From assembly GCF_000585995.1 (NCBI RefSeq), contig NZ_CP007410.1:3871430-3935429 (forward strand): DNA of 64,000 nt. The letters are read 5' to 3'. The position numbers and the translations under genes are program-made. Shown here in pieces: positions 35,964-48,978 of this stretch (position 1 is the stretch's first letter; every line of letters begins with the position of its first letter). The DNA comes from Pseudomonas brassicacearum. GTDB lineage: Bacteria; Pseudomonadota; Gammaproteobacteria; Pseudomonadales; Pseudomonadaceae. The notes beneath the pieces are model-generated. The model saw only the letters and a list, made by a program, of their open reading frames with translations. It was not told the DNA's origin and ran no database searches.

Positions 35964-36746
35964 ATGGACAACAGCGTCATCCCAAGCAACGATCTGGTGT
36001 CGGCGGTTGGCCGGACCATGGCCGTACTCGAGGCTCTGGCCGAGCATCCGGAAGAAAGCGGCGTCTCGGAAATCGCCACCAAACTGGACATGTCCAAGGC
36101 CACGGTTTATCGCTTTCTGCAGTCGCTCAAGGCGCGGGGGTATGTGGTGCAGGATGCCGAGGATCGCTATCGCCTCAGCGTCCGGCTATTCGAGCTGGGG
36201 GCCCAGGCCCTGCCCCACCTGGACATCGTCCGGGAAGCAGAACCGGGCATGCGCCGGATCAACGAGCTGACGGGCGAGACGGTTCACCTGGGGATTCTCG
36301 ACGAAGGCAGCATCGTCTACGTGCACAAGATCGACTCCAAGTACAACCTGCGCATGTACTCGCGCATTGGCCGGCGGGCGCCGTTGTACTGCACCGGCAT
36401 CGGCAAGGTGCTGATGGCCTGGCTGGAAGAAGATGAGCTGCTGGCGCACCTCAAGGAAGAAAGCTTCGAGCGCCGCACGGCCAACACCTTGACCAGCGTC
36501 GAAGCCTATCTGGAAGAACTGGAAACGGTTCGCCGACAAGGCTATGCCGAAGACCATGAAGAGTTCGAAGACAACATGCGCTGCCTGGCGGCACCGATTC
36601 GCGACCGTTTCGGGCACGTGATCGGCGGCATGAGCGTTTCATTCCCGTGTTTTCGCTTCAGGGAAGAATTGAAGCAGGACTACGTCAAGCAACTGATGGA
36701 GGCCACGCAGCAGATTTCAGCTCAGTTGGGCTGGCACCCGCGTTGA
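35964..36746 (+). CDS. kdgR: IclR-family regulator, KdgR-like
   Basis: A 260-residue IclR regulator. Winged helix at residues ~10-75 (LVSAVGRTMAVLEALAEHPEESGVSEIATKLDMSKATVYRFLQSL) and an effector domain from ~85 (INELTGETVHLGILDEGSIVYVHKI; YCTGIGKVLMAWL). The start at 35964 has GGAG upstream; an earlier ATG at 35901 lies inside operator 2. Position opposite kdgK and the KdgR boxes argue that it is the KDG-responsive repressor of the hexuronate operon. The symbol is assigned by this context. Confidence 0.82.
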   Translation: MDNSVIPSNDLVSAVGRTMAVLEALAEHPEESGVSEIATKLDMSKATVYRFLQSLKARGYVVQDAEDRYRLSVRLFELGAQALPHLDIVREAEPGMRRINELTGETVHLGILDEGSIVYVHKIDSKYNLRMYSRIGRRAPLYCTGIGKVLMAWLEEDELLAHLKEESFERRTANTLTSVEAYLEELETVRRQGYAEDHEEFEDNMRCLAAPIRDRFGHVIGGMSVSFPCFRFREELKQDYVKQLMEATQQISAQLGWHPR

Positions 36747-36766
36747 GTCGCTGCGGGTGCTGAGAG

Positions 36767-37675
36767 TCAGTTCGGGCCTGATCCAACCTCACTCATACGG
36801 GACGTCGATATGAACCCTGTGATGGCCGCGACGACCTCGGCACCCCGCTCAAGGTAGGGCACATGCCCGCAATCCTCGATGACCTGGCCGCAGGCATCGG
36901 GCAGTTGCGAGAGCAGGTCCTCCAGGGCGGCGGGCAGGAACACTTGGTCATGTCGCCCCCAGATCACCAGGGTCCTCGAAGCGATCTGCGGAAGCCGTTC
37001 AAGAAGGACGTCCAGGCCTTCACGGCGAAAATCCTCGACGGCCCGCTGCACCGCAGCAAACTTCGATTTGCCGCTGGCCGCCATGGCCTGGGCCAGGCGT
37101 CCGCCTACTCGGGGCGGTTCCTTGAACACCAGGCTCCAGAAGCGCTTCATCTCCGCCACCGTACGATAGCCGAAGAGCGTTCCCTGCCCTTGCAGGCTGG
37201 CCTGCAAGGCCGGGCCGAGCGCCGCCGAGCCGAGACCGGCGGGTGCCAGCAAGACCAGATGACTAACCCGTTGTGGGTGTTTCGCGGCATACAGCCCCGC
37301 CACGCAACCGCCCAACGAGCTGCCGACCAGCACGAACGGCCCCTCGCCTAGCGTTTCCAACAACCCCTCCAGCTCCGCCAGCAAGGCCTGTGGTCCGAAG
37401 CCTGCGTTCGGCTCATAGGAGGATTGGCCATGCCCTGGCAGATCGACGAACACGCAGGAGTGATGCCGCGCCATCCCCAGAATCGCGGGCCCCCACTGGT
37501 CCTTGCTGGCGCCCAAGCCATGAAGGATGACCAGTGTCGGCCCCTTCTGACAGGCAGTGCCCTGAAGATAGGCCAAGCGCCCCTGCCCGCTGGTGTGCCA
37601 GCGCAGTTTCAAACCGAACTTCCAGCGCTGGACCTGGCGCAAGGTACCTAGCAACAGCCGATCAACGCTGTTCAT
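36767..37675 (-). CDS. Alpha/beta-hydrolase
   Basis: A 302-residue alpha/beta-hydrolase with oxyanion motif LHGLGASKDQW, nucleophile elbow VGSSLGG (Ser), acid WGRHDQVF and His in CGHVPYLE. The triad is complete. It is the last gene of the six-gene operon starting at 41782, and its start overlaps the EamA stop by 14 bp. In this setting it could release or hydrolyse a CoA, amide or lactone intermediate, but the substrate is unknown. No signal peptide. Confidence 0.85.
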   Translation of the reverse strand: MNSVDRLLLGTLRQVQRWKFGLKLRWHTSGQGRLAYLQGTACQKGPTLVILHGLGASKDQWGPAILGMARHHSCVFVDLPGHGQSSYEPNAGFGPQALLAELEGLLETLGEGPFVLVGSSLGGCVAGLYAAKHPQRVSHLVLLAPAGLGSAALGPALQASLQGQGTLFGYRTVAEMKRFWSLVFKEPPRVGGRLAQAMAASGKSKFAAVQRAVEDFRREGLDVLLERLPQIASRTLVIWGRHDQVFLPAALEDLLSQLPDACGQVIEDCGHVPYLERGAEVVAAITGFISTSRMSEVGSGPN

Positions 37676-38570
37676 CCGCCACTCCTCGCCCTTTGCTGCT
37701 GCCAGCCTTGAGAAAGAACTTTGCGGGTAGCCGGAGTTGGCAGAGCGCCACGCCGGACAACGTCAACACCGCCCCGATCACCAGGCGCTGGCTGATGCCT
37801 TCGGCGAGCATGATCTGGCTGACGGCGATTGCGAACAGCGGCACCAAGAGCAGGTACGGGCTCAGTTGCTGCATCGAGTTGCGTCCAAGCAACCAGAACC
37901 ACAGGCCGAATCCCAGGAGACCGCCACTGAGCGCCGTGTAGAGGACTGCCCACCACGCCTGTGCGCTGGCCGTATAGACGCTCGCCCATTGCCCGCCTTC
38001 CTGGACGAAGGACCACAACAACAGTTGCGGCGCGGCGATGACCGCGGTCCAGGCACTCAAGGCCAGCGGATCCAGCGGCCCGAGACGCTTGGTCAACACC
38101 GATCCGACAGCGAATGCCAAAGCCGCCAGCGCTACCAGCAGCATACCGACGAATGTCCCGCTCGCCGACGGTTTGGCCAGCAGCACCAAGACACCGGCGA
38201 ACGCCAGCAGAATGCCCGCCAGTACCCGCACCTTCAGGACTTCACCCAATAATGCGAACGCCAGAATCAGGGTAAAGGGTGCCGTCAACTGATAGATGAT
38301 TGCCGAAGTAGAGGCATCTACCCGGGCGATGCCGCAATACAGCAAGCCAAAATGCAAAGTGCCGGTAATCGTGGCAATCACGGCCACGGACGCGAACTGC
38401 TCGCGCTTGATCCGCTTGAGCAGAGGCATGAGAAACAGCGCCATGATCGCGTAGCGCATAGCGACCATGAGGATAGGCGGCAGCTCGGCGCCCCCCATCT
38501 TCACGGCGGTAACCTGGGCGCCCCAGAGCAATGCGACCAGCAGCGCTAGCAATGAATCTTTCAATGGCAT
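37662..38570 (-). CDS. EamA/DMT-family transporter
   Basis: A 302-residue membrane protein with ten predicted helices in two EamA repeats (MPLKDSLLALLVALLWGAQVTAVKMGGAELPP... and AWWAVLYTALSGGLLGFGLWFWLLGRN...). Family members export amino acids, their derivatives and other small metabolites. It is the fifth gene of the cluster operon, with a 5-bp gap to the flavoprotein gene, so it is a candidate exporter of the cluster product. Confidence 0.85.
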   Translation of the reverse strand: MPLKDSLLALLVALLWGAQVTAVKMGGAELPPILMVAMRYAIMALFLMPLLKRIKREQFASVAVIATITGTLHFGLLYCGIARVDASTSAIIYQLTAPFTLILAFALLGEVLKVRVLAGILLAFAGVLVLLAKPSASGTFVGMLLVALAALAFAVGSVLTKRLGPLDPLALSAWTAVIAAPQLLLWSFVQEGGQWASVYTASAQAWWAVLYTALSGGLLGFGLWFWLLGRNSMQQLSPYLLLVPLFAIAVSQIMLAEGISQRLVIGAVLTLSGVALCQLRLPAKFFLKAGSSKGRGVADEQR

Positions 38571-38575
38571 GACAG

Positions 38576-39187
38576 TTATCCCTTCTGAAATTGAATGGGC
38601 CGCAGGATTCTTTCCGGCTTGCTTGTGGCAACCCCCGCTGGATTCAGTCGACGGTAGTGCTCACAGAGCCGGTCCAGCGTCTCGCACAAGGCCTGCTCCG
38701 CTTCAGGATCGTGGGCCAGCTGTGTCTGGAAGCACGGCGGGAATCCCGATCCGACCAGAATCATCTTGTTGAGCAGTACGTTCAGCGCGACCTGGGAGAA
38801 AACAGCTGTGTGCCCATAGCGCCGACCGACGACCGCAATCGCCGCGAGCTTGTCGCGCAGCGGGCGTTGGCGTGGACGCAAGAAGCCATAGCCGACCCGC
38901 TCCAGAAACGCCTGGAAACGACTGTTGGTGCCGTAGGCGTGCATGACGGGGAGATAGAGCACCGCATCGGCGCGGTCCAGCCGCGCCACCAACTGTCCGA
39001 CGTCGTCCTGCAACGCGCAGTCCTGGTCTGAACAGGCGTTGTCGGCATCGCAATAGTCGATCCGGTAGTCCTTGAGCCAGATGGCATCGACCTCGACCTC
39101 CTCGCCCAAGTGGCGGCGCACCAGCGCCACCACCCGTGCACTGACACCACAAGGTCGGCTGGAGCCGACAATGATGGTCAGGTTCAT
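38576..39187 (-). CDS. NADPH-dependent FMN reductase-like flavodoxin-fold protein
   Basis: A 203-residue flavodoxin-fold protein. It starts with the FMN phosphate-binding motif IIVGSSRPCGVSARVV and has LYLPVMHAYGTNSRFQAFLERVG for the isoalloxazine side. Cys residues in YCDADNACSDQDCALQDD resemble the cysteine spacing of iron-sulfur flavoproteins, so a redox cluster or disulfide is possible. It probably supplies electrons to the diiron enzyme encoded 3 bp upstream (inference). Confidence 0.8.
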   Translation of the reverse strand: MNLTIIVGSSRPCGVSARVVALVRRHLGEEVEVDAIWLKDYRIDYCDADNACSDQDCALQDDVGQLVARLDRADAVLYLPVMHAYGTNSRFQAFLERVGYGFLRPRQRPLRDKLAAIAVVGRRYGHTAVFSQVALNVLLNKMILVGSGFPPCFQTQLAHDPEAEQALCETLDRLCEHYRRLNPAGVATSKPERILRPIQFQKG

Positions 39188-39190
39188 GAT

Positions 39191-39874
39191 TCAGCAAGCC
39201 TCCCGCAGCCCTTCTTCGCCAGCCAGATAGGTGCGCAGCGCTTCTTCCATCAACTGCCCGGTCAACCACAACGTGACGCTGGCGACTTCCTTGATCTGGC
39301 GACGATCTTCCTCGGTCTTCACCGCACGTTGCATGGCCAGGCGTACTTCTTCGGCGTGCTTCTCATCGATGGTCGAGTGGGCAACGAAGAACGTCATCTG
39401 CTCGTCCTTCAAGCCCAGGTCGGTGCGGAACCTGTCCAGGATCGGCTGGATGTGCTCGTAGACGTCTTCGGCCCAATAGCTGTAGCCCAGCCGTGCGATC
39501 GGCCCCTTGCGGATAGCCACATCATTGAGGAAGGCGATCAGCGCCTGGGTTGGCGCCAGGGGTGCCGGCATGTCCTGCGGCAGCAGCCCGACAGACTCGA
39601 GGTCGCGCAGCACCATGCGCTCGTGACCCAGCTCTTCCAGGGCGTGCTTATAAACGAAGCGCAGTAGCGTCGTTTCTTCCGGGTCGCTACTGAAGGCGCA
39701 AGCGGCCTGGTTGACCGAGTTGTAGCGAGTGTAGTGGTACACCTGCAACATCAGTTGTTGGTAGAGGGCTGGCGGCGTGGGGTTGTCCAGGCTGAATTTC
39801 CAGTAGGCACCCTGCTTGATCTGGGCCCAGCCCGCTTCGACGATCGCGTCGAGTTCCTTGAAGAATGCTTGCAT
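39191..39874 (-). CDS. Haem-oxygenase-like diiron oxidase/oxygenase (TenA/UndA superfamily)
   Basis: A 227-residue all-helical protein. Conserved metal-ligand candidates are visible: H47 (YHYTRYN), E81-x2-H84 (EELGH), E136 (EDVYEH) and H166-x3-D170-x2-H173 (HSTIDEKH). This matches the haem-oxygenase-like diiron (HDO) group, which includes UndA, SznF and CADD and carries out N-oxygenation, C-C cleavage or p-aminobenzoate formation. The start at 39874 follows the GNAT stop by 1 bp; an upstream ATG at 39907 overlaps that gene. Substrate unknown; an aromatic amine or acyl-amino acid is inferred from context. Confidence 0.8.
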   Translation of the reverse strand: MQAFFKELDAIVEAGWAQIKQGAYWKFSLDNPTPPALYQQLMLQVYHYTRYNSVNQAACAFSSDPEETTLLRFVYKHALEELGHERMVLRDLESVGLLPQDMPAPLAPTQALIAFLNDVAIRKGPIARLGYSYWAEDVYEHIQPILDRFRTDLGLKDEQMTFFVAHSTIDEKHAEEVRLAMQRAVKTEEDRRQIKEVASVTLWLTGQLMEEALRTYLAGEEGLREAC

Positions 39875-39875
39875 T

Positions 39876-40421
39876 TCAATTGGCTCCTTTAACGTTGTGG
39901 TAAACACTTTCGAGTTCCAGATACACGAGGCTGTAGCACCGCTCCACCTGCTCCCCGGTCCAGGTCACGTCATCCTTCAGCACACGCCCGCCCAGGCCGA
40001 CATACAGCGCAGCCAGTTGGCCGCGACACAGTGCCGAGATGAATCGCAGGTGGGTGTTGGCTTTCAGCCAGATGGACGCCTGCAGGAGAAACATGCGCAG
40101 GTGCCGTCCTCCGCGGTAGCGCTCGTCCAGCACCAGCCGATTGGCATCGAAGGCATCTGTCGACTGTTGAAAATAGGCGTGCACATTGACGGCCCGCTCG
40201 ACGAAGCTCAGGCCATGGCCCAGCGGTGTGACGCGCAATGTCCCGACCACTTCATCGTTGTCCAGATAGATCAGGTGATAGGACATGGCGTCGCGCAGCT
40301 GCTCCCTTCGATCGAAGTCATCCTCCTTCGCCGGGTTAGTCCCCAGGTAGCGACTGCGCAGTTGCCTGACGGACTCGAACAGATCACTGGCGCTGTCGAT
40401 CACGCGAACAGACAAGCTCAT
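39876..40421 (-). CDS. GNAT of LuxI/FeeM-like type (putative N-acyl synthase)
   Basis: A 181-residue GNAT-fold protein. The region LRSRYLG...EDDFDRRE...YHLIYLDNDEVVGTLRVTPLGHG (residues 21-70) is laid out like the LuxI family (Arg, Asp-Phe-Asp and GxxR core). NRLVLDERYRGGRHLRMFLLQASIWL (residues 94-119) resembles the acceptor/cofactor loop of FeeM-type N-acyl amino acid synthases. It is neither a clear AHL synthase nor a standard acetyltransferase. Start at 40421, 8 bp after the ligase stop. The neighbouring ligase could supply the acyl donor and the LuxR protein could sense the product (inference). Confidence 0.75.
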   Translation of the reverse strand: MSLSVRVIDSASDLFESVRQLRSRYLGTNPAKEDDFDRREQLRDAMSYHLIYLDNDEVVGTLRVTPLGHGLSFVERAVNVHAYFQQSTDAFDANRLVLDERYRGGRHLRMFLLQASIWLKANTHLRFISALCRGQLAALYVGLGGRVLKDDVTWTGEQVERCYSLVYLELESVYHNVKGAN

Positions 40422-40429
40422 CGGTGACC

Positions 40430-41782
40430 TCACTGGCCTTCGCGTTGATCGACGATGCGGGCTTCTTTCCAGCTGAACCAACTGCCAAGGTTCACGTGTT
40501 CGGCAAGATCGCCAACCACCATGACCGTGGCTTCGACACCCAGCCGTTCGCGCAGGCGCTCCTTGATCAGCAGCACCAGGCGTGCACGATCACCCTCGAA
40601 GAAGCGCGACATCTCCAGCTTGGCGATGACGGTATCGCGATCATTGGCGCGGCTAAGGACGATCTGATAGCCAAGGCACTGTTCGACGCCTTCAAGCAGC
40701 GCCTGCTCGATCTGCGCGGCCGAAAAGGCGCGATCGTTCAACTGCACGGCATCTTTCACTCGACCGACAACCTTGACGGTCTGGCGCATCGATTGGGGAT
40801 AGCCCGGACGCGACTGGATCGAAACCAGGTCGCCTGTGCGATAGCGGATCAACGGCTTGCTGCCAGGGATCAGCATGGTCACGCACAACTCGCCGTCGCC
40901 GGTGCTGCCCAGGCTTTCACCGGTCTTGGGGTCAAGGACTTCGATGATGTAGTTCAGACGATGCGGCACCAGTTGGTCGTTGGCGTTGCAGGCCGCGATG
41001 ATCATCGCTTCCTGGGAGCCATACAGGCTGTTGTAGGCCTGCGCGCCCCACAGGCTGTAAAGGTTGTTCTTCAACGCAGGGGTGCACAGCTCGCCACTCA
41101 TCATGAAGGCACGCAGGGCGAAGTCTTCGCGTGGGTTGAAGCCCTGGCGCTCGGCTTCCTTGGCCATGGCCAGCAGAAGGCCCGGCGCCGAGGCGAGTAC
41201 CCCGATGCGCAGGTCCTTGAGCAGCTGGAGCGCCTTGGGCCAGCCAATCACCGGTGAATGTGGCCAGATCTTGGCATTGCACAGATCGAGCTGGGTGCAG
41301 ACATCGCCCAGGGTGTCACCGAAGGAATGAACCTCGGTGGGTCCCATGATGCCGACCACGGTCTTTTCACCCGGAAAATGCTTTTCGATCACCGCCTGGT
41401 AGGCCATGGCCAGTTGGCGATTGCTCGCGTAGCTTTCCTTGCGGTCCCGCGGGCATGGCGTAGCAGGCCCGGTAGTGCCGGTGGTTTCGTAATAGAAGAT
41501 GCTGTCTTCCAGCGGGCCGGACAAGATGTCAAAGCCTGCCTCGCGCAAGTCATCCTTGGTCGTGAATGGCAAGGTGACGAGGTCATCCAAGGTCAGCGAG
41601 CGCTCGGCGATTTGGGCGAGGTGCCTGGCATAGAACGGCGAAGAACGCTTCACATGGCCGATCACCTCCCGCAACTGCTCCTGATGCCAGGCAGCCAGGG
41701 CGGTGTCGCTCAGGACATCGGTCCAATAGGCATGATGAATCGGATCGTACCGCTTCTTGAATGTGTCTAGATGCTCTTTCAT
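40430..41782 (-). CDS. PaaK-type acyl/aryl-CoA ligase (AMP-binding)
   Basis: A 450-residue adenylating enzyme of the phenylacetate-CoA ligase family. ATP loop ETTGTTGPATPCPRD (residues 99-113), A5-type YNSLYGSQEAM, A8-type YRTGDLV and a C-terminal PaaK-type subdomain. It should activate a carboxylic acid, probably aromatic, as AMP ester and then CoA or carrier thioester. The anthranilate synthase genes opposite suggest anthranilate as substrate (inference). First gene of the six-gene operon. A palindrome at 41849-41869 lies upstream of it. Confidence 0.85.
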   Translation of the reverse strand: MKEHLDTFKKRYDPIHHAYWTDVLSDTALAAWHQEQLREVIGHVKRSSPFYARHLAQIAERSLTLDDLVTLPFTTKDDLREAGFDILSGPLEDSIFYYETTGTTGPATPCPRDRKESYASNRQLAMAYQAVIEKHFPGEKTVVGIMGPTEVHSFGDTLGDVCTQLDLCNAKIWPHSPVIGWPKALQLLKDLRIGVLASAPGLLLAMAKEAERQGFNPREDFALRAFMMSGELCTPALKNNLYSLWGAQAYNSLYGSQEAMIIAACNANDQLVPHRLNYIIEVLDPKTGESLGSTGDGELCVTMLIPGSKPLIRYRTGDLVSIQSRPGYPQSMRQTVKVVGRVKDAVQLNDRAFSAAQIEQALLEGVEQCLGYQIVLSRANDRDTVIAKLEMSRFFEGDRARLVLLIKERLRERLGVEATVMVVGDLAEHVNLGSWFSWKEARIVDQREGQ

Positions 41783-42429
41783 TTCAGCCGCTCAGGTTTG
41801 ATGGGTTACTGCAAACTCAACGGCCGCTACATTAGTGACAGAACTTACCAATACCCAGCTGCGGTATTGCACAGTTGTGCGCGCACGCGTTTCTTGTTAA
41901 AGGCACGCGCGATTACATATACGCAAGCACAGTTCCTGCTCCTGCCGACATTAAGAAATGACCAAATGATTAATATCCGTCGAGCAGTTGACAGCCCAGG
42001 GGCGCACTGGTAATTTCGCCGCACTGCCGTTCATTTCCCGCAGTGCCTAGCCAAGACTGGGATGTCTAAAAATGTACTATCACCTTTCTGCTATCAGTTC
42101 CTCCCACAGCTATCCCGACAGCTGTTCCCGGGCCATTCTGGCCATCTTCAAAAGCAATATCTGGCGTCGCTAATCCAGCGAAGACCGGAGCCTGTCTGCT
42201 GCTTGCCAGCAACATCCTGATCATTCACCCATGAAATCGAAGGCGCTCGCGCCTTGTGTCCTGCACATTGCCTGGCTGCAATCCGTTGCATGCCTTGTAT
42301 TGCGCGCGGCATGAAAAGCGTCCGCCTCGAATATTCAGGATATCCGTCACTCCCTATTTAAAGTGTTCACGCACTTTATATTCCCGTGGCCCTCTCTTAA
42401 TGGAGTGCCTGAATCGTTGCACCTTGAAA
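41783..42429. other. 647-bp divergent intergenic region with regulatory signals
   Basis: AT-richer than the flanks, no convincing gene on either strand. It must carry the promoters of the ligase operon (left) and of trpE (right). One strong palindrome is seen (41849-41869, listed separately). The trpE side contains ATATTCAGGATAT (42339-42351) and AT-rich stretches with no clear -35/-10 pair. Short frames here have neither binding site nor codon bias. Confidence 0.6.
41849..41869 (-). promoter_or_regulatory. Palindrome upstream of the ligase operon (possible LuxR-type box)
   Basis: CAATACC-N7-GGTATTG, a 21-bp dyad whose centre lies ~77 bp before the ligase start. On the minus strand a -10-like TAATGT (41834-41829) follows, placing the dyad near -37. 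Size and position suit a LuxR-type activator, and the LuxR gene of this cluster is the obvious candidate. No second copy was found nearby, so this remains inference. Confidence 0.5.
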
Positions 42430-43911
42430 ATGGTATTAGCCGTGAATAAACATTTAATTGACGTCAATGTTCTTCGCCGTGAGGAACGTCGATCTACGGA
42501 TGCACTTGGCATATATGCAAATGCGCGGGCACAACTGGGTCGCGAGTCTGTCTTCATTCTTGAATCACTCTCCGGTCCGAGCCGTGATCGCAGGGCGACG
42601 ATCATCGGGCTCGAGCCCCTGTTCGAGGTGTGTATCGATGAAGGCCAGGCGCAGCTGCGCGGCTGTCCTGCGCTGTGTGAACATTTGTCCGTCAGCCTGC
42701 GACAAATGGATGTGCAGATCGATCACCACCACAAAATCCATCTGCCGGACAGCGAGGCCGCATGGAACCTGCTGCGGGCTATCCAGGCTACCTTCCAGCC
42801 CGCGGCCAATGCGCCGTCCAGCCTGGCGTTCTTCGGCTATTTCTCCTACGACTGCGTGCGCCTGATCGAGCGACTTCCCGATCTGGCTGAAAAGACCTAC
42901 GACTACCCGCTCATTGCCTTGTCGGTCTATCAGACACTGGTGTATTTCCACAGCAATGGCATTGTCGAAACCCTGATCAACAACCACCCGTTGTGGACGC
43001 CCCGCACGTTGGAGGACTACCCCTGCCTCACCACGCCTGCGGCGTGCGAGGCGGTGGACCTGCCAGCGTATCCAGAGGCCTTCGAGGAAGTCCGCACAGT
43101 CACCCCGGAACAGTTTTTCGAACGTGTCGAAGTCGCAATGGAGCACATCCGTGCCGGCGACGTGTACCAGATCCAGCTCGGCCACGAGATTCGCATCCGC
43201 TCGCAGGTATCGCCGTTCGATGTGTACCAGAACCTGCGCCTGCGCAACCCCTCTCCTTACATGTACCTGGCCCATGTGGGCGGTATCGACCTGATCGGTG
43301 CCAGTCCTGAGCTGTTCGTCAGGATCAAGGACGACTTGATAGAGATGCGCCCAATCGCCGGCACCGTTGGCAAGAAACCCGGTGTCGATCCCACTCAGTT
43401 GGTCCTGGAGCTGACCCGATCGGAGAAAGAGCGTGCCGAGCACCTGATGCTCATCGATCTGTGTCGCAATGATATCGGTCGCGTCTGTCAGGCCGGCTCG
43501 CTGGAGGTCGACGAGTTCATGCTGGTGGAGGAGTACTCGCACCTCTATCACATGGTATCGAACGTTCGTGGCCTGCTGCGCCCGGGCCTGGATGCCTATG
43601 ACGTGATCAAGGCGTCATTCCCCGCTGGGACCATGTCCGGCGCGCCCAAGGTCAGGGCGATGGAGCTGATCGAGGGGATGGAGAGCAACCGCAGGGGCAT
43701 CTATGCCGGGGCCTTGGGCCTGGTGGGGTTCGACGGCAGCGTCAATACCGCCCTGTGCATTCGCTCGACAGTCTTCGACGAAGGCACCTACCACTTGCGT
43801 GCATCCGCCGGGGTGGTCGCCGACTCGGTGCCCGAGATGGAGTGGAAAGAGACGTTGTACAAGATGGGTTCTGTATATCGGGCGGTGACCGGCCAGGAGA
43901 TCGCACTGTGA
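42430..43911 (+). CDS. Anthranilate synthase component I-like (TrpE family, cluster paralogue)
   Basis: A 493-residue chorismate-using enzyme. Residues 43-46 (ILES) match the tryptophan-binding LLES motif. The chorismate site reads MRPIAGT (PIAGT at 308-312), then AEHLMLIDLCRNDIGRVC, FPAGTMSGAPKVRAMELI and DGSVNTALCIRS. PIAGT argues for anthranilate rather than aminodeoxychorismate (PIKGT). The usual Arg after PIAGT is missing (VGKKP). The start is uncertain (42400, 42430 or GTG 42442); no strong binding site is visible. It overlaps trpG-like by 4 bp. Location in the ligase/GNAT/HDO cluster argues for a specialised anthranilate supply, not housekeeping tryptophan synthesis. Confidence 0.85.
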   Translation: MVLAVNKHLIDVNVLRREERRSTDALGIYANARAQLGRESVFILESLSGPSRDRRATIIGLEPLFEVCIDEGQAQLRGCPALCEHLSVSLRQMDVQIDHHHKIHLPDSEAAWNLLRAIQATFQPAANAPSSLAFFGYFSYDCVRLIERLPDLAEKTYDYPLIALSVYQTLVYFHSNGIVETLINNHPLWTPRTLEDYPCLTTPAACEAVDLPAYPEAFEEVRTVTPEQFFERVEVAMEHIRAGDVYQIQLGHEIRIRSQVSPFDVYQNLRLRNPSPYMYLAHVGGIDLIGASPELFVRIKDDLIEMRPIAGTVGKKPGVDPTQLVLELTRSEKERAEHLMLIDLCRNDIGRVCQAGSLEVDEFMLVEEYSHLYHMVSNVRGLLRPGLDAYDVIKASFPAGTMSGAPKVRAMELIEGMESNRRGIYAGALGLVGFDGSVNTALCIRSTVFDEGTYHLRASAGVVADSVPEMEWKETLYKMGSVYRAVTGQEIAL

Positions 43912-44492
43912 AAGTATTCCTGATCGATGCCTACGACAGCTTCGTCTTTATCATCAGCCAATACCTGGAACAACTGGGGTTGGAAACCCGCGTCGAACGT
44001 CACGACGTGCCGGACCTCATCCAGCGCATCGAGGCTTTCTCGCCGGACTTCTGTGTGCTGGGTCCAGGTCCAGGGCATCCGGCCGACGTTGGCTACATCG
44101 AAGTGATCCGGCATTTCCAGGGCCGTTTGCCGCTGCTGGGCGTTTGCCTGGGTCATCAGGCCATCGGACTGGCCTTCGGCGCCCAGGTTTGCCGGGCCCC
44201 GCACGTGATGCACGGCAAGGTGAGCACGATCGAGAACGATGGCAGAGGCGTCTATGACCATACCCAAGCCCGTGCCATACAGGCCACCCGTTATCACTCG
44301 CTGATGATCCGCGACGAGCAGGTACCCGACTGTCTGGAGGTCACTTCGAGGTCCACTGACGATGGGTATGTGATGGGCGTGCGGCATCGCCACCTGCCGG
44401 TGGAGGGGGTGCAGTTTCACCCTGAAAGCATCCTGACTGAAAACGGCCTGGAGCTATTCCGCAGTTTCATCCGCTGTTACGTGCACCCGTGA
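43908..44492 (+). CDS. Anthranilate synthase component II-like (TrpG glutamine amidotransferase)
   Basis: A 194-residue class I glutamine amidotransferase. It has LIDAYDSF at the N-terminus, LGPGPGHP, the nucleophile LLGVCLGHQAIG (Cys80) and VQFHPES (His171, Glu173), a complete triad. It supplies ammonia to the TrpE-like partner. The GTG start overlaps the trpE stop (GTGA), giving strict coupling. A terminator follows at 44501. Confidence 0.9.
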   Translation: MKVFLIDAYDSFVFIISQYLEQLGLETRVERHDVPDLIQRIEAFSPDFCVLGPGPGHPADVGYIEVIRHFQGRLPLLGVCLGHQAIGLAFGAQVCRAPHVMHGKVSTIENDGRGVYDHTQARAIQATRYHSLMIRDEQVPDCLEVTSRSTDDGYVMGVRHRHLPVEGVQFHPESILTENGLELFRSFIRCYVHP

Positions 44493-44500
44493 TTCGCCAG

Positions 44501-44524
44501 GAGGGGCGCACGCCCCTTCTTTTT
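44501..44524 (+). terminator. Rho-independent terminator after the trpEG-like pair
   Basis: Stem GAGGGGCG-ca-CGCCCCTT followed by a T-rich run (TTCTTTTT). It begins 9 bp after the trpG stop and ends 48 bp before the LuxR start, so the LuxR gene needs its own promoter or read-through. Confidence 0.8.
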
Positions 44525-44571
44525 CCATGCTCCGACTGTTTCATTCCCGCGATAACAAGAGCGACTCGTTT

Positions 44572-45366
44572 ATGGACAAACTCAACTCCCCCGTCTGCGA
44601 CCGGACCCAGGCCGGGCGTACCGCACCGCTGACCGCCTTCATGAGTCTCGCCAAAGATGCCAACCGTTGCGATTGGGAGCGTCTGGTCAACAAAGTACTG
44701 CGCCAACTCGGCTTCGGCAGCTACCTCATCAGCCTGGGACCGGTTGCACGCCGGGATACCGACCCGCTGGCCGGCCTCATCACCACCTTTCCCAAACGCT
44801 GGCTGGAACACTATCGCGGTGACGGGCTGATCGAGATCGACCCGATACTCAGGCACTGTCGACGCGAACTGGTGCCTTTTTTCTGGGACAGCGAGCGCAG
44901 GCGCGCCCGTGGACGCTCCCGGCACTTCTGGCAGCAACGCGAGCAACACGGCCTGCGCAGCGGCCTGAGCATCCCGTTGCGCTACGAGCTGCTCAGGGGA
45001 ACACTGAGCGTGGCCTTCGATGACACCCAGATCACCGAACAGGAGGGTTTTTCCAACCCCGCCGTCTATCAATTGTTCATGCTCATCCCGTACCTGCTCG
45101 CCGGGATGCGCCATCAATTGCAGGGGCCTGCCCAACCCCGCCAGGACCTGACGCCCAAGGAAATGGACTGCCTGTATTGGGCCAGCGTCGGCAAGACCAC
45201 CTGGGAAATCAGCCACATCCTGACCTGTTCCGAACGCACCATCGACTTCCACCTACTCAATGCCCGACGCAAACTCGGTTCAGTGAGTCGCCAGCAGGCC
45301 GTCAGTGCTGCGGTGGCCTGCGGGCTGGTCATGCCGACGGTTGTGGCGCCGATTTACAGCTGCTAG
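44572..45366 (+). CDS. LuxR-family regulator with autoinducer-binding domain
   Basis: A 264-residue quorum-sensing-type regulator. The N-terminal domain keeps the conserved ligand-pocket residues of AHL receptors: W77, Y81, D90-P91, W105 and G131. The C-terminal LuxR helix-turn-helix (residues ~192-255) has LTPKEMDCLYWASVGKTTWEISHILTCSERTIDFHLLNARRKLG. No canonical LuxI gene is in the window; the LuxI/FeeM-like GNAT 4 kb away is the closest candidate partner. Start at 44572 avoids the terminator; an ATG at 44527 abuts it and has no binding site. Confidence 0.87.
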   Translation: MDKLNSPVCDRTQAGRTAPLTAFMSLAKDANRCDWERLVNKVLRQLGFGSYLISLGPVARRDTDPLAGLITTFPKRWLEHYRGDGLIEIDPILRHCRRELVPFFWDSERRRARGRSRHFWQQREQHGLRSGLSIPLRYELLRGTLSVAFDDTQITEQEGFSNPAVYQLFMLIPYLLAGMRHQLQGPAQPRQDLTPKEMDCLYWASVGKTTWEISHILTCSERTIDFHLLNARRKLGSVSRQQAVSAAVACGLVMPTVVAPIYSC

Positions 45367-45429
45367 AAATAAGCACGATCACCGGGATCATCCATTGATC
45401 CCGACTCATACCTCACAGGGAGCGTCACC

Positions 45430-46056
45430 GTGTTTCCAATGGACATCTGGTTCACCTACACCACCGCCTGCGTATTGCTGGTGCTGTCTCCGGGCCCCGA
45501 CAATCTTCTGGCGATAGGCCGCGGACTCAGCCAGGGTCGCTTGGCCGCCCTCGTGTCAGGCCTGTCGTCTGGCCTGGGCATCCTGTTTCATGTCACCACC
45601 GCCTCGCTGGGGCTGACGCTGCTGATCCAGACCTCGACGGTCGCCTTCTGGGTCGTCAAGTTGGTGGGGGCCGCCTATCTGCTCTGGCTCGGGGTCAAGG
45701 TGCTGCGCTCCAAAAGCCTGATCACCTTCGCGCCCGCCGCACGACAACCCCTGCGCAGCATCTTACTCACAGGCTTTCTTTCAGCAGCGCTCAATCCCAA
45801 GCCAGGGTTGTTCGTGCTGGCGTTCATCCCTCAATTCATCAATCCAGCGCTTGGCTCGGTCACTGTGCAAATGCTGGTCTACGGGTTCTGGTTCGCCCTG
45901 CTGACGGCCGTGGGATTCTCGCTGATGGGCATCTTCGCCACGCGCCTGTCGCAATACATTTATCAACGCCCGCGTCTGGCCAACGGACTCAACCTCGGCG
46001 CTGGGTTGACCTTCATCGTGTCAGGACTTTCCATCGCTGCGCTCAGCCAGAAATAG
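45430..46056 (+). CDS. LysE/RhtB-family exporter
   Basis: A 208-residue membrane protein with about six helices. It shows the family motifs SPGPDNLLAIGRGLSQGR and GAAYLLWLGVKVLRS. Members export amino acids and similar compounds. The GTG at 45430 is chosen because GGGAG lies 8 bp upstream; ATG 45439 is an alternative. It follows the LuxR gene by 63 bp on the same strand and may export an amino-acid-like product of the cluster (inference). Confidence 0.88.
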   Translation: MFPMDIWFTYTTACVLLVLSPGPDNLLAIGRGLSQGRLAALVSGLSSGLGILFHVTTASLGLTLLIQTSTVAFWVVKLVGAAYLLWLGVKVLRSKSLITFAPAARQPLRSILLTGFLSAALNPKPGLFVLAFIPQFINPALGSVTVQMLVYGFWFALLTAVGFSLMGIFATRLSQYIYQRPRLANGLNLGAGLTFIVSGLSIAALSQK

Positions 46057-46068
46057 CGGCTCCAGGCG

Positions 46069-48978
46069 TCAGCGTTGCTCGGTACCCGGTGCACCGAGCG
46101 AAGTCGCGAGCAATGCTTCCAACCCCATCGGCTTGGCAAAATAATAACCTTGGGCCTGCCCTGCCCCCATCTCGCGCAGCAAGAGCAGCGTCGCTTCATC
46201 CTCGACGCCTTCGGCCACCACGCTCAGGTCCAGCGATTCGGCCATACGCACAATCGCCCGGACGATCGCGCGACTGCGGGAACTGGTGGTCAGCTCGAAG
46301 ATAAACGACTTGTCGATCTTCAAGCCGCTGAAACGGTATTGATGCACATAGCTCAGGGATGAAAATCCCGCGCCGAAGTCATCGAGCACCACTGACATGC
46401 CGTTGTCGGCCAATTGCTGCATGGTCAACCGGGCAATGGCTGGCTCAGCCACCAGCGCACCTTCGGTCAATTCCAGGCAGATTCGCGATGGCGCGACGTT
46501 GTACCGGGCCAACAGCGCAAGCACATCCTCGGCGAAGTCCGGGCGCGCCATGCTGTAGCTGGAACAATTGACATGCACCGGCGGCCAATTGGCGTGCTGG
46601 GGCTCTGCGAGGATCACCGCGATGCTGGTGAGCATGTACAAATCCAGCCGACCGATCAGGCGCAACCCCTCGACATCCGGCAAAAACTGGCCTGGGGCGA
46701 TGATCCGGCCGCCCGGCTGATGCCAACGGATCAGCGCTTCAAGGGCCAACAGCTCACCGGTTTCGACGCTGACAATCGGCTGGAAATACGGCAGCAGCTC
46801 GTCAGTGCGCTTGAGCGCATTGCGCAACGCCCCTTCGCGCTCGACCTGGTCAGAGACTTCACGGCGCACCTCCTGGTTGAACACCGCGTAGCTGTCGCGC
46901 CCGGCACTCTTGACCCGGTACATCGCCGCATCGGCATCGCGCAACAAATCGGCGGGAACCAGGTGGAACTGCGTGTCGGCGCTGACAATGCCGATACTGC
47001 AGGACGAAAAAACCTCATGGCCATTGATGAAAAACGGCAGGTCAAACACCGCCAGGATCCGTTCGGCGATCTCGATCACCACATCCAGCGACGCCTCGGG
47101 AGCCAGCACCGAAAACTCATCGCCCCCCAGGCGGGCCAGCATGTCGGAGTCGCGCAGACAACTGCGCAAACGCTGGGCCGCCTGCATCAACAACAGGTCG
47201 CCAAAATGGTGGCCGAAGCTGTCATTGACCCTCTTGAAACGGTCGAGGTCGATGAACATCACCGTCAGTTGCGCGCCTTCCCGCTCGAACCGCGACCAGG
47301 CCAGGTTGAGGCGCTGTTGCAGGTAGGTACGATTTGGCAGCCCGGTCAGCGCATCGTGGGCGTTTTCGTGTTGCAACTTGGCGTTGGCGTGATCGAGCTC
47401 GCGGGTGCGGTCCTGCACCCTCGCTTCGAGCTTGAGGTTGGCGGCATGGATCGCTTCTGCGGCCGTGCGTCGCGACAACGCGGTGTCGATGTGCCGTGAC
47501 ACGAACGTCAGCAGTTCCTGATCGCGCAGGGTATAGCGCACCTGCGAGGTATAGCTTTGCACCGCCAACACACCACGTACTACATCGCCATCGAACAACG
47601 GAATGCCCAGCCAGGAATGGAATCGGACGGACTCGTAGGACATTTCGAGCTCACCCTGCGCTGCCAAGCGATCCGCGTCCTCGGGGTCGATCAGGCAAGG
47701 TCGACGCTGACGAATAACATACTCGGTCAAGCCCCGGCAGCCACGCCGCGCCGCCGGGTGGGTTATTTCCCGCTCATCGACATAGTAGGGAAAGGTCACT
47801 TCACCGATCGTGTCGTCGAACAGCGCGATGTAGAAGTTCTGCGCGGACAGCAGGTCACCGACGATACCGTGCAAGGTTTGAAACAACTCAGCCATGTCCC
47901 CGGGCTGGCTCGACAGTTCCGCAATCTGGAACAGCGCGCTCTGCAGATGCTCGGCGCGCTCGCGGTCCGCCACTTCCTGGCGCAATGCGTCGTTGACTGC
48001 CGAAAGCTCCAGGGTGCGACGCCTCACCGTCTCTTCCATGCCCTCCCGGTTCAGAATCCGGTCCAGCGCCATGGCCACGTGACGGACCACCACCAAAAAC
48101 AGCGCGCGGTCTTCGGCGCTGTAGGTTCGCGCAACGTCGTAGACCTGCATGGCGAGCATGCCAAACACCTCATCCGAGGCATTTTTCAACGGCGCGCCCA
48201 TCCAGAACTCCGGGCGATCACCCACGCAGTAGAAACGGCCCTCGTCCTGGGCCGCGCGAATACCGGCGGCGTCGATCAGCAATGGCTGGCCGCTGGTCAA
48301 CACCTGGCCGGTCAATGACAGGTGCGAAGGGTCAAGGTATTCGTAGTGTTGGGACTCCACCGCATCCACATCGATGATGTCGACGTAATACGGATAGTCA
48401 ATCTTGCCGCTGCGCGGGTCATACAACGCCAGATAGAAATTCTCGGCGTCGATCAGGCTGGCGAGCAACTGATGAACGCCCACCAGAAATACAGACCGAT
48501 CACGGGTCGAGCTGGCCAGATAGGTAATCTCATACAACACACGCTGAGTGATCTGGGCCCGGGCAAGGGTATCGGTCTGTACCCGAATGCCCAGGCGCTG
48601 GGCAAACTCGGCGAGCGCCGGTTCCCCGGCTTCGTCGACGGGCGCCAATAGCCAACCCAGCACACTTTCGCCTTTGCCGGTCGGCCAACGGTGCAGCTGC
48701 CAGGTCTGGCAGAAGGCTTCAAACTCTCCATTGGCAACGCTTGACGGCCATTGCACCCCAGCGTCGCCTTGCCCGACCAAATGCATTTGTTCGCCGGCGC
48801 GATAAACCGCCCACTGGGTGGTGTGAGCCCAGTGACGCGCCGAGTCGAGCAGTTGTTCAATCGTGTCTTCGTCGCCCGCGTACGCCATGCCGAAAGCATC
48901 CGAGTTTTCTTTCTGGTGAGATGTGGCAGTGTAATCGTTGAATTGCCGCGGGGGATCGCTCAATGGACGAAGACTCAT
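46069..48978 (-). CDS. Cytoplasmic GAF-GAF-GGDEF-EAL protein
   Basis: A 969-residue c-di-GMP enzyme. The first ~150 residues are unassigned, followed by two GAF domains (about 160-315 and 345-500, each with YYVD and W(L/M)GxPL motifs), a short coiled coil, GGDEF (motif at 618-622, intact) and EAL (EAL at 747-749; LDDFGAGFSS later, intact). No transmembrane segment. Both catalytic centres look complete. The start at 48978 follows AGGGAG; upstream ATG 49029 is less well supported. It converges on the LysE gene with a 12-bp gap. Confidence 0.9.
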   Translation of the reverse strand: MSLRPLSDPPRQFNDYTATSHQKENSDAFGMAYAGDEDTIEQLLDSARHWAHTTQWAVYRAGEQMHLVGQGDAGVQWPSSVANGEFEAFCQTWQLHRWPTGKGESVLGWLLAPVDEAGEPALAEFAQRLGIRVQTDTLARAQITQRVLYEITYLASSTRDRSVFLVGVHQLLASLIDAENFYLALYDPRSGKIDYPYYVDIIDVDAVESQHYEYLDPSHLSLTGQVLTSGQPLLIDAAGIRAAQDEGRFYCVGDRPEFWMGAPLKNASDEVFGMLAMQVYDVARTYSAEDRALFLVVVRHVAMALDRILNREGMEETVRRRTLELSAVNDALRQEVADRERAEHLQSALFQIAELSSQPGDMAELFQTLHGIVGDLLSAQNFYIALFDDTIGEVTFPYYVDEREITHPAARRGCRGLTEYVIRQRRPCLIDPEDADRLAAQGELEMSYESVRFHSWLGIPLFDGDVVRGVLAVQSYTSQVRYTLRDQELLTFVSRHIDTALSRRTAAEAIHAANLKLEARVQDRTRELDHANAKLQHENAHDALTGLPNRTYLQQRLNLAWSRFEREGAQLTVMFIDLDRFKRVNDSFGHHFGDLLLMQAAQRLRSCLRDSDMLARLGGDEFSVLAPEASLDVVIEIAERILAVFDLPFFINGHEVFSSCSIGIVSADTQFHLVPADLLRDADAAMYRVKSAGRDSYAVFNQEVRREVSDQVEREGALRNALKRTDELLPYFQPIVSVETGELLALEALIRWHQPGGRIIAPGQFLPDVEGLRLIGRLDLYMLTSIAVILAEPQHANWPPVHVNCSSYSMARPDFAEDVLALLARYNVAPSRICLELTEGALVAEPAIARLTMQQLADNGMSVVLDDFGAGFSSLSYVHQYRFSGLKIDKSFIFELTTSSRSRAIVRAIVRMAESLDLSVVAEGVEDEATLLLLREMGAGQAQGYYFAKPMGLEALLATSLGAPGTEQR

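Follow-up and report, generated by a model that had tools for sequence, protein, structure and literature searches.

A stretch of 64,000 nucleotides from the 6.65-Mb genome of Pseudomonas brassicacearum (the window; contig NZ_CP007410.1) carries nine genes that we read, with a probability of about one half, as a dedicated pathway for an anthranilate-derived metabolite under its own LuxR-type switch; the chemistry and the ligand are inferred. Six of the genes form a minus-strand operon, in the order ligase, GNAT, haem-oxygenase-like diiron oxidase/oxygenase (HDO), flavin mononucleotide (FMN) reductase, EamA transporter and alpha/beta hydrolase, and trpE, trpG and luxR lie opposite. The genes and strands given by an earlier inspection of the letters alone (the sequence-only reading) were confirmed, with spacers of 8, 1, 3 and 5 bp and a 14-bp overlap between successive operon genes. 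The 1-bp GNAT-HDO spacing is a hand count that takes the HDO start at 39874, after AAAGGAG; a longer alternative start would give a 32-bp overlap with the GNAT gene. That reading had further proposed that anthranilate is made, activated, conjugated, oxidised and exported, and that it may act as a signal. This interpretation is supported in part: what stands includes a co-inherited gene set with its own anthranilate synthase, whereas the LysE exporter and the intact pocket for N-acyl homoserine lactones (AHLs) are not supported.

A scan of a named genome collection with one protein as query, the ligase, which finds close relatives only, yielded 15 loci, all in Pseudomonas. The closest by ligase identity (97-98%) belong to Pseudomonas sp. 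MWU13-2100, P. brassicacearum and P. zanjanensis. Of the 15 loci, 14 carry the whole set of nine genes, so the cluster comparison that the sequence-only reading had called for does find them together, and they occur in two gene orders. Eight complete loci have the divergent order of the window; in the other six (P. fluorescens HK44, P. orientalis, two Irchel isolates, P. graminis and P. mandelii) the order is colinear, with trpE-trpG-luxR placed after the hydrolase gene. The fifteenth locus (L048, P. frederiksbergensis) retains trpE-trpG-luxR and a fragment of the ligase gene. Because the set recurs in 14 of 15 loci and in two orders, we take the nine genes to be a real unit. Mean identity between the two orders is 71% for the ligase, 73% for TrpG, 46% for LuxR (41-50%) and about 43% for the hydrolase, which varies most among the nine. 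For every gene the pairwise distances track those of the ligase (r 0.93-0.97; 13 of the 14 complete loci, L037 and the window excluded, and fewer for hdo, fmnR and luxR), which fits genes inherited together, but common species history alone could also produce it. The alignments used comprise the window and 13 of the 14 complete loci for the GNAT, 12 for LuxR, 10 for the HDO and all 14, with L049 added, for the ligase; some hdo and luxR copies, for which start assignment gave implausible frames, were excluded. The fmnR gene of L045 has 84 codons and then a stop.

Across 298 genomes of the genus, 83 gave some ligase match at E 1e-20 and 10 an orthologue (at least 73% identity). None of 368 other genomes of the class has an orthologue; three of them gave a match, of only 108-116 bits across about 240 positions. 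A trpE orthologue was found in 14 of the 298, all 10 ligase-orthologue genomes among them. The genus sample and the named loci overlap (G006/L034, G135/L047, G088/L045 and G080/L039 are the same assemblies), and their counts are not independent.

The trpE gene (42430..43911, plus strand; PF00425/PF04715) encodes a TrpE-type anthranilate synthase large subunit, and trpG (43905..44492, plus strand; PF00117, with TIGR00566 above its cut-off) a TrpG-type glutamine amidotransferase subunit; 42430 is the most likely start of trpE, as 44572 is of luxR. The three best PDB matches of TrpE are anthranilate synthases, and a PhzE-type enzyme found no support, with no PhzE in the PDB match list at E 1e-20. 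The genome has three chorismate-binding enzymes, the cluster TrpE being 35-37% identical to the other two, and additional anthranilate from chorismate is the most likely product of the pair. The first gene of the operon (40430..41782, minus strand) encodes a PaaK-type AMP-forming aryl acid ligase of 450 amino acids, as the sequence-only reading had proposed: the PaaK fold and the adenylation motifs are present, and PaaK1, NatL2, AjiA1 and ClxA are its fold neighbours. Its closest other relative in the genus sample (39% identity) lies directly upstream of a different trpE-trpG pair, in a non-ribosomal peptide synthetase (NRPS) cluster. This placement counts in favour of an anthranilate pathway.

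The trpE-trpG pair lies directly upstream of luxR (44572..45366, plus strand; PF03472 and PF00196), both in the window and at all 15 named loci. The solved protein nearest to this LuxR-type regulator is LasR. In LasR numbering, all 13 copies have Trp60, Tyr64, Asp73 and Gly113, and 12 have Trp88. The claim that all AHL-pocket residues are kept does not hold: the position of TraR Ala105 is Arg in every one of the 13 aligned copies, and Tyr56 is Phe in eight, all of divergent order and the window copy among them, and Tyr in the five colinear ones. Judged by Arg105 and Phe56, the window protein is not a standard AHL receptor, and its pocket suggests a non-canonical ligand, as had been supposed. 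These features are those of LuxR solo subgroup G of the fluorescent pseudomonads (Bez et al. 2021, PMC8546723), which is defined by an adjacent two-gene anthranilate synthase operon and in which Arg stands for Ala105 while the other pocket residues are conserved. Altered ligand specificity was predicted for it, with Arg at position 105 occluding the lactone site, and Bez et al. suggest that the flanking operon might produce signal molecules (PMC8546723). By its neighbours and Arg105, the cluster LuxR matches subgroup G as that paper describes it; subgroups A and G share 31-52% identity there (PMC8546723), against 41-50% between the gene orders here. The six-gene operon, the operator-like box and the leader reading frame described below are not mentioned in the available text of PMC8546723, which nowhere uses the words coenzyme A ligase, acyltransferase or heme oxygenase.

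For P. syringae pv. actinidiae, a published list places PsaR3 beside an anthranilate/p-aminobenzoate synthase component II (PMC10134790), and the spacing of its Trp77, Tyr81, Leu93, Phe119 and Arg123 (PMC3909224) equals, by hand count, that of the window LuxR. It probably belongs to the same LuxR group. Swarming and swimming are reduced in a psaR3 mutant and are not restored by complementation (PMC3909224).

Upstream of the ligase we found a lux-box-like site that the sequence-only reading had overlooked, AACTGTGCAATACCGCAGCT (41857..41876, minus strand; 75-94 bp upstream of the ligase start), a candidate operator for LuxR. A CT-N12-AG site beginning AACTG starts 86-120 bp upstream of the ligase in 13 of 15 regions, in both gene orders (L034 and L040 show a one-base difference in the alignment). 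The form AACTG-N10-CAG occurs within the last 150 bp upstream of the ligase in 12 of 15 regions against 0.2% of shuffled stretches, and the dyad symmetry of the box is moderate (4-7 of 10 pairs). Because the 15 upstream regions are related, the contrast of the two gene orders outweighs the count of regions. A lux box for trpE was rejected, AACTG-N10-CAG being found in none of the six colinear trpE upstream regions. Another pattern, ACTGTCAG-N3-TGACAGGT, has at least seven copies in the genome of the window (G000:C1:1013445, 2252606, 2264339, 2628669, 2640976, 2761855 and others); they are probably operators of another regulator.

Also overlooked was a leader open reading frame (ORF) of 33 codons upstream of trpE, MYYHLSAISSSHSYPDSCSRAILAIFKSNIWRR (42072..42173, plus strand), which is present in 17 of 22 sequences searched: nine divergent ones (the window, L034-L040 and L043), the incomplete loci L048 and L067-L069, and the colinear L042, L044, L047 and L071. 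It was not found in L041, L045, L072, L046 or L070; among the 22, L071 duplicates L047 and L072 duplicates L045. In L043 a stop replaces the Trp codon. Per site, silent changes outnumber those of amino acids (pS 0.48-0.77 and pN 0.34-0.48 for the listed pairs that span the two gene orders), and L042 and L044 differ by five silent changes and one amino-acid change. A pattern for the 3' end of the ORF (27 bases, up to three mismatches) matched 11 of the 298 genus genomes and none with the reversed control, and all 11 matches lie about 240-335 bp upstream of this trpE. Three of the 14 trpE genomes (G088, G129 and G274) lack the pattern. Three of the 11 matching genomes (G003, G039 and G125) have no ligase orthologue, so the ORF goes with trpEG. 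Our reading is that of a translated leader for tuning trpEG, with a small functional protein as the alternative. Through its translation, the leader probably senses the supply of amino acids or aromatic compounds.

The leader RNA folds better than its shuffles (z -4.2), and covariation is weak, both sides having changed in 6 of 114 pairs. A promoter-like TTGACA-N17-TAATTT, read by eye, points towards the ORF and trpE (41988..42016, plus strand). TTGACA is present in nine of nine divergent-type regions; a consensus promoter scan found nothing at this position, the second hexamer fitting TATAAT at only three of six places. Just after it on the trpE side (42021-42046) is a dyad, GCACTGC...GCAGTGC, whose arms are kept and whose loop varies in eight aligned sequences. 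Another dyad, TAAAGTG-N6-CACTTTA, may be an operator or an RNA hairpin and lies just upstream of trpE (42359..42378). It keeps at least 17 of 20 positions in seven of nine divergent loci and 16 in L038, and was not found in L043 or the colinear loci. As a wider operator it was rejected: its exact form has two genome sites only, and one mismatch gives seven sites against eight for the reversed control. Rfam leaders or riboswitches were likewise rejected, with two chance-level matches far below gathering scores in 36500-46200, and 36000-47000 contains no tandem repeats.

The second operon gene (39876..40421, minus strand) encodes a GNAT of 181 amino acids with, in its predicted structure (pLDDT 85.4), the LuxI/FeeM fold, a putative amide-forming acyltransferase. 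AHL synthases and FeeM are its nearest folds by VIA Z (LasI 17.1, TofI 15.7, BjaI 15.1, RpaI 14.9, MesI and FeeM 14.8, best other GNAT 14.8), in keeping with the sequence-only assignment, and the top query TM-score listed by Foldseek is 0.69, common to RpaI and LasI. The profile of the GNAT alignment had no match under E 0.1 among PDB sequences, and aligned with the two LuxI proteins of the genome over 57 columns at a probability of 0.9%. The LuxI tryptophan of the S-adenosylmethionine (SAM) site, Trp34 in EsaI, has no counterpart in the alignment of the GNAT with these LuxIs.

The third gene (39191..39874, minus strand; PF14518) encodes an HDO-type protein of 227 amino acids, in agreement with the diiron oxidase proposed earlier; it matches 3dde in the PDB (E 8.5e-41). 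The HDO superfamily is defined by a ligand set of three His and three carboxylates (PMC13108848). Five candidates for these six ligands were located, in the motifs E92xxH95 and HxxxDxxH (177-184), and these (E92, H95, H177, D181 and H184) are invariant in 11 sequences. Next come an NADPH-dependent FMN reductase family protein (38576..39187, minus strand; PF03358), a possible electron supplier with no PDB sequence relative at E 0.01, and an EamA/drug-metabolite transporter (DMT) family protein (37662..38570, minus strand; PF00892 in two stretches), a putative exporter. The last gene (36767..37675, minus strand; PF00561) encodes the alpha/beta hydrolase. EamA, in 14 of 15 named loci, is the conserved transporter of the cluster. 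The lysE gene beyond luxR (45436-46056), to which export had been ascribed, is not supported as a member: an orthologue (82-96%) turned up in just two loci, L048 and L068, neither of which has a complete operon. The view beyond luxR extended about 4.4 kb in divergent loci and less than 1 kb in most colinear ones.

Taken together, TrpE-TrpG would supply extra anthranilate from chorismate, and the PaaK-type ligase would adenylate or CoA-activate anthranilate or an oxidised form of it. The LuxI/FeeM-fold GNAT would then transfer an acyl or aroyl group to give an amide, the HDO may oxidise the nitrogen or the ring with electrons from the flavin reductase, the hydrolase may edit or release the product, and EamA would export it. 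LuxR, with a lactone site that Arg105 is predicted to narrow, would probably sense the product or a relative of it rather than a plain AHL and activate the ligase operon at the AACTG-N10-CAG box, and the trpEG branch would be under its own structured leader with the 33-codon ORF. A bolder form of this scheme is quorum sensing of a new class, in which the subgroup-G autoinducer is an oxidised anthranilate-derived amide, made by an acyltransferase that has the LuxI fold but belongs to another family, with positive feedback on the operon and precursor supply set through the 33-residue leader peptide; we hold this extension to be rather unlikely.

Several observations weigh against an anthranilate pathway switched by its own product. 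TrpE scores below the TIGR00564 equivalog cut-off (375.6 against 517.7 bits), TIGR00564 still being its best NCBIfam match. Four of the 14 genomes with this trpE have no ligase orthologue, so trpEG can exist without the ligase. Among them, G039 (L069) keeps parts of two genes, luxR and the hydrolase gene; in G003 (L068) lysE and a weak fragment of the ligase gene were seen, and G125 (L067) and G129 (L091) showed no convincing operon or luxR fragment within the 17-18 kb examined. In L048, L067, L068, L069 and L091, trpE-trpG is intact where the six-gene operon is broken or absent. The pair may serve some purpose of its own. Foldseek E-values rank ordinary GNATs first and RpaI only 14th, and the GNAT passes no Pfam cut-off, its matches to PF13444 and FeeM (FeeM/N-acyl amino acid synthase family, PF21926) being sub-threshold. 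PF00765 (LuxI) is absent from the families matched by 14 GNAT members at E up to 10. The bare pattern RCTG-N10-CAGST is common in the genome, with 125 + 121 sites, fewer than the 180 + 151 of the reversed control, and the weight of the box therefore rests on its conserved position. Finally, a PsaR3 reporter rises by 23-38% with OH-AHLs (PMC3909224), and an AHL could be the ligand of LuxR because the genome has two true luxI genes elsewhere, above the PF00765 cut-off (L054 and L055; G000:C1:1187438 and 3567647). Each of these has a LuxR-like reading frame beside it.

The most likely alternative builds on these last points. It holds that the cluster makes an anthranilate-derived antimicrobial or metal-binding product, not a signal, under AHL control, LuxR being an eavesdropping solo for the AHLs of the cell's own LuxIs or of its neighbours. 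With Trp60, Tyr64 and Asp73 kept in every copy, and a precedent in the accessible literature for a LuxR protein (QscR) beside phenazine genes, we consider it possible rather than probable: the invariant Arg105 would, on the prediction of Bez et al., block the lactone site, Phe replaces Tyr56 in eight of 13 copies, and the PsaR3 effect is small, its authors noting a possible SdiA background (PMC3909224). Could the GNAT instead make an unusual homoserine lactone (HSL), anthraniloyl-HSL or an oxidised form, in an RpaI/RpaR-like aryl-HSL system with a self-made aryl acid? AHL synthases, RpaI (which uses p-coumaroyl-CoA) included, do top the VIA list, RpaI shares the best listed TM-score, and ligase and LuxR stand within one gene set; the missing PF00765 match, the low-probability alignment with the host LuxIs, the SAM-site Trp without counterpart and Arg105 in the receptor make it improbable. 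That ordinary aromatic-metabolism genes adjoin by accident is scarcely credible. Every gene does come from a common superfamily, and the G+C content of the cluster (60.3%) equals that of the window (59.9%), but an accident is contradicted by a rearranged yet complete nine-gene set in 14 of 15 loci and by its patchy distribution, in 10 of 298 genomes of the genus and, as orthologues, in none of the 368 others of the class.

The preferred reading, an anthranilate-derived metabolite under a dedicated LuxR, has partial counterparts in known systems. In the Pseudomonas quinolone signal (PQS)/alkylquinolone pathway (phnAB and pqsABCDE), a second anthranilate synthase feeds an aryl acid ligase for a signal. 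The cluster likewise pairs an extra anthranilate synthase with such a ligase; ketosynthase-like PqsBCD genes are not among the Pfam assignments of the ten cluster-region genes scanned. With the p-coumaroyl-HSL system RpaI/RpaR of Rhodopseudomonas palustris it shares a LuxI-fold enzyme, here proposed to use an aryl-CoA, and a LuxR-type receptor, but the GNAT has no PF00765 match or recognisable SAM site, the aryl acid would be self-made, and oxidase, reductase, hydrolase and transporter genes are added. PluR/PpyS and PauR/DarABC place a LuxR beside the genes for its own non-AHL ligand, the arrangement that we propose here by analogy; as far as their accessible descriptions go, they differ in chemistry and lack autoinduction, whereas the cluster has a box upstream of its biosynthetic operon. 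The Mgo/Pvf/Ham diazeniumdiolate-type systems also have an HDO in a small metabolite or signalling operon. A cluster of that type was rejected here, with no NRPS gene among the ten scanned and one weak related PDB match, the mangotoxin enzyme MboA (E 0.069).

In the open-licence literature searched we found no description of the six-gene operon, the box, the leader ORF or a product, none of the combination of HDO, PaaK ligase and GNAT, and no reported ligand of a subgroup-G LuxR solo. The claim that no such pathway had been described thus stands for the full set and not for the LuxR-trpEG pairing, which, with the guess of signal synthesis, is already in print (PMC8546723). Subgroup-G solos hereby gain a complete candidate biosynthetic operon and a candidate operator and, if the product is the ligand, a non-AHL LuxR signal would be made from anthranilate via a LuxI-like enzyme.

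A separate gene cluster was observed in L049 (G006:C34, 660-14160), which contains an FMN reductase, an AlkZ-like DNA glycosylase, a two-module NRPS, a PaaK-like ligase (38%), trpE, trpG, a major facilitator superfamily (MFS) transporter and a lone condensation domain. It looks like a cluster for an anthranilate-containing product with a DNA-repair self-resistance gene.

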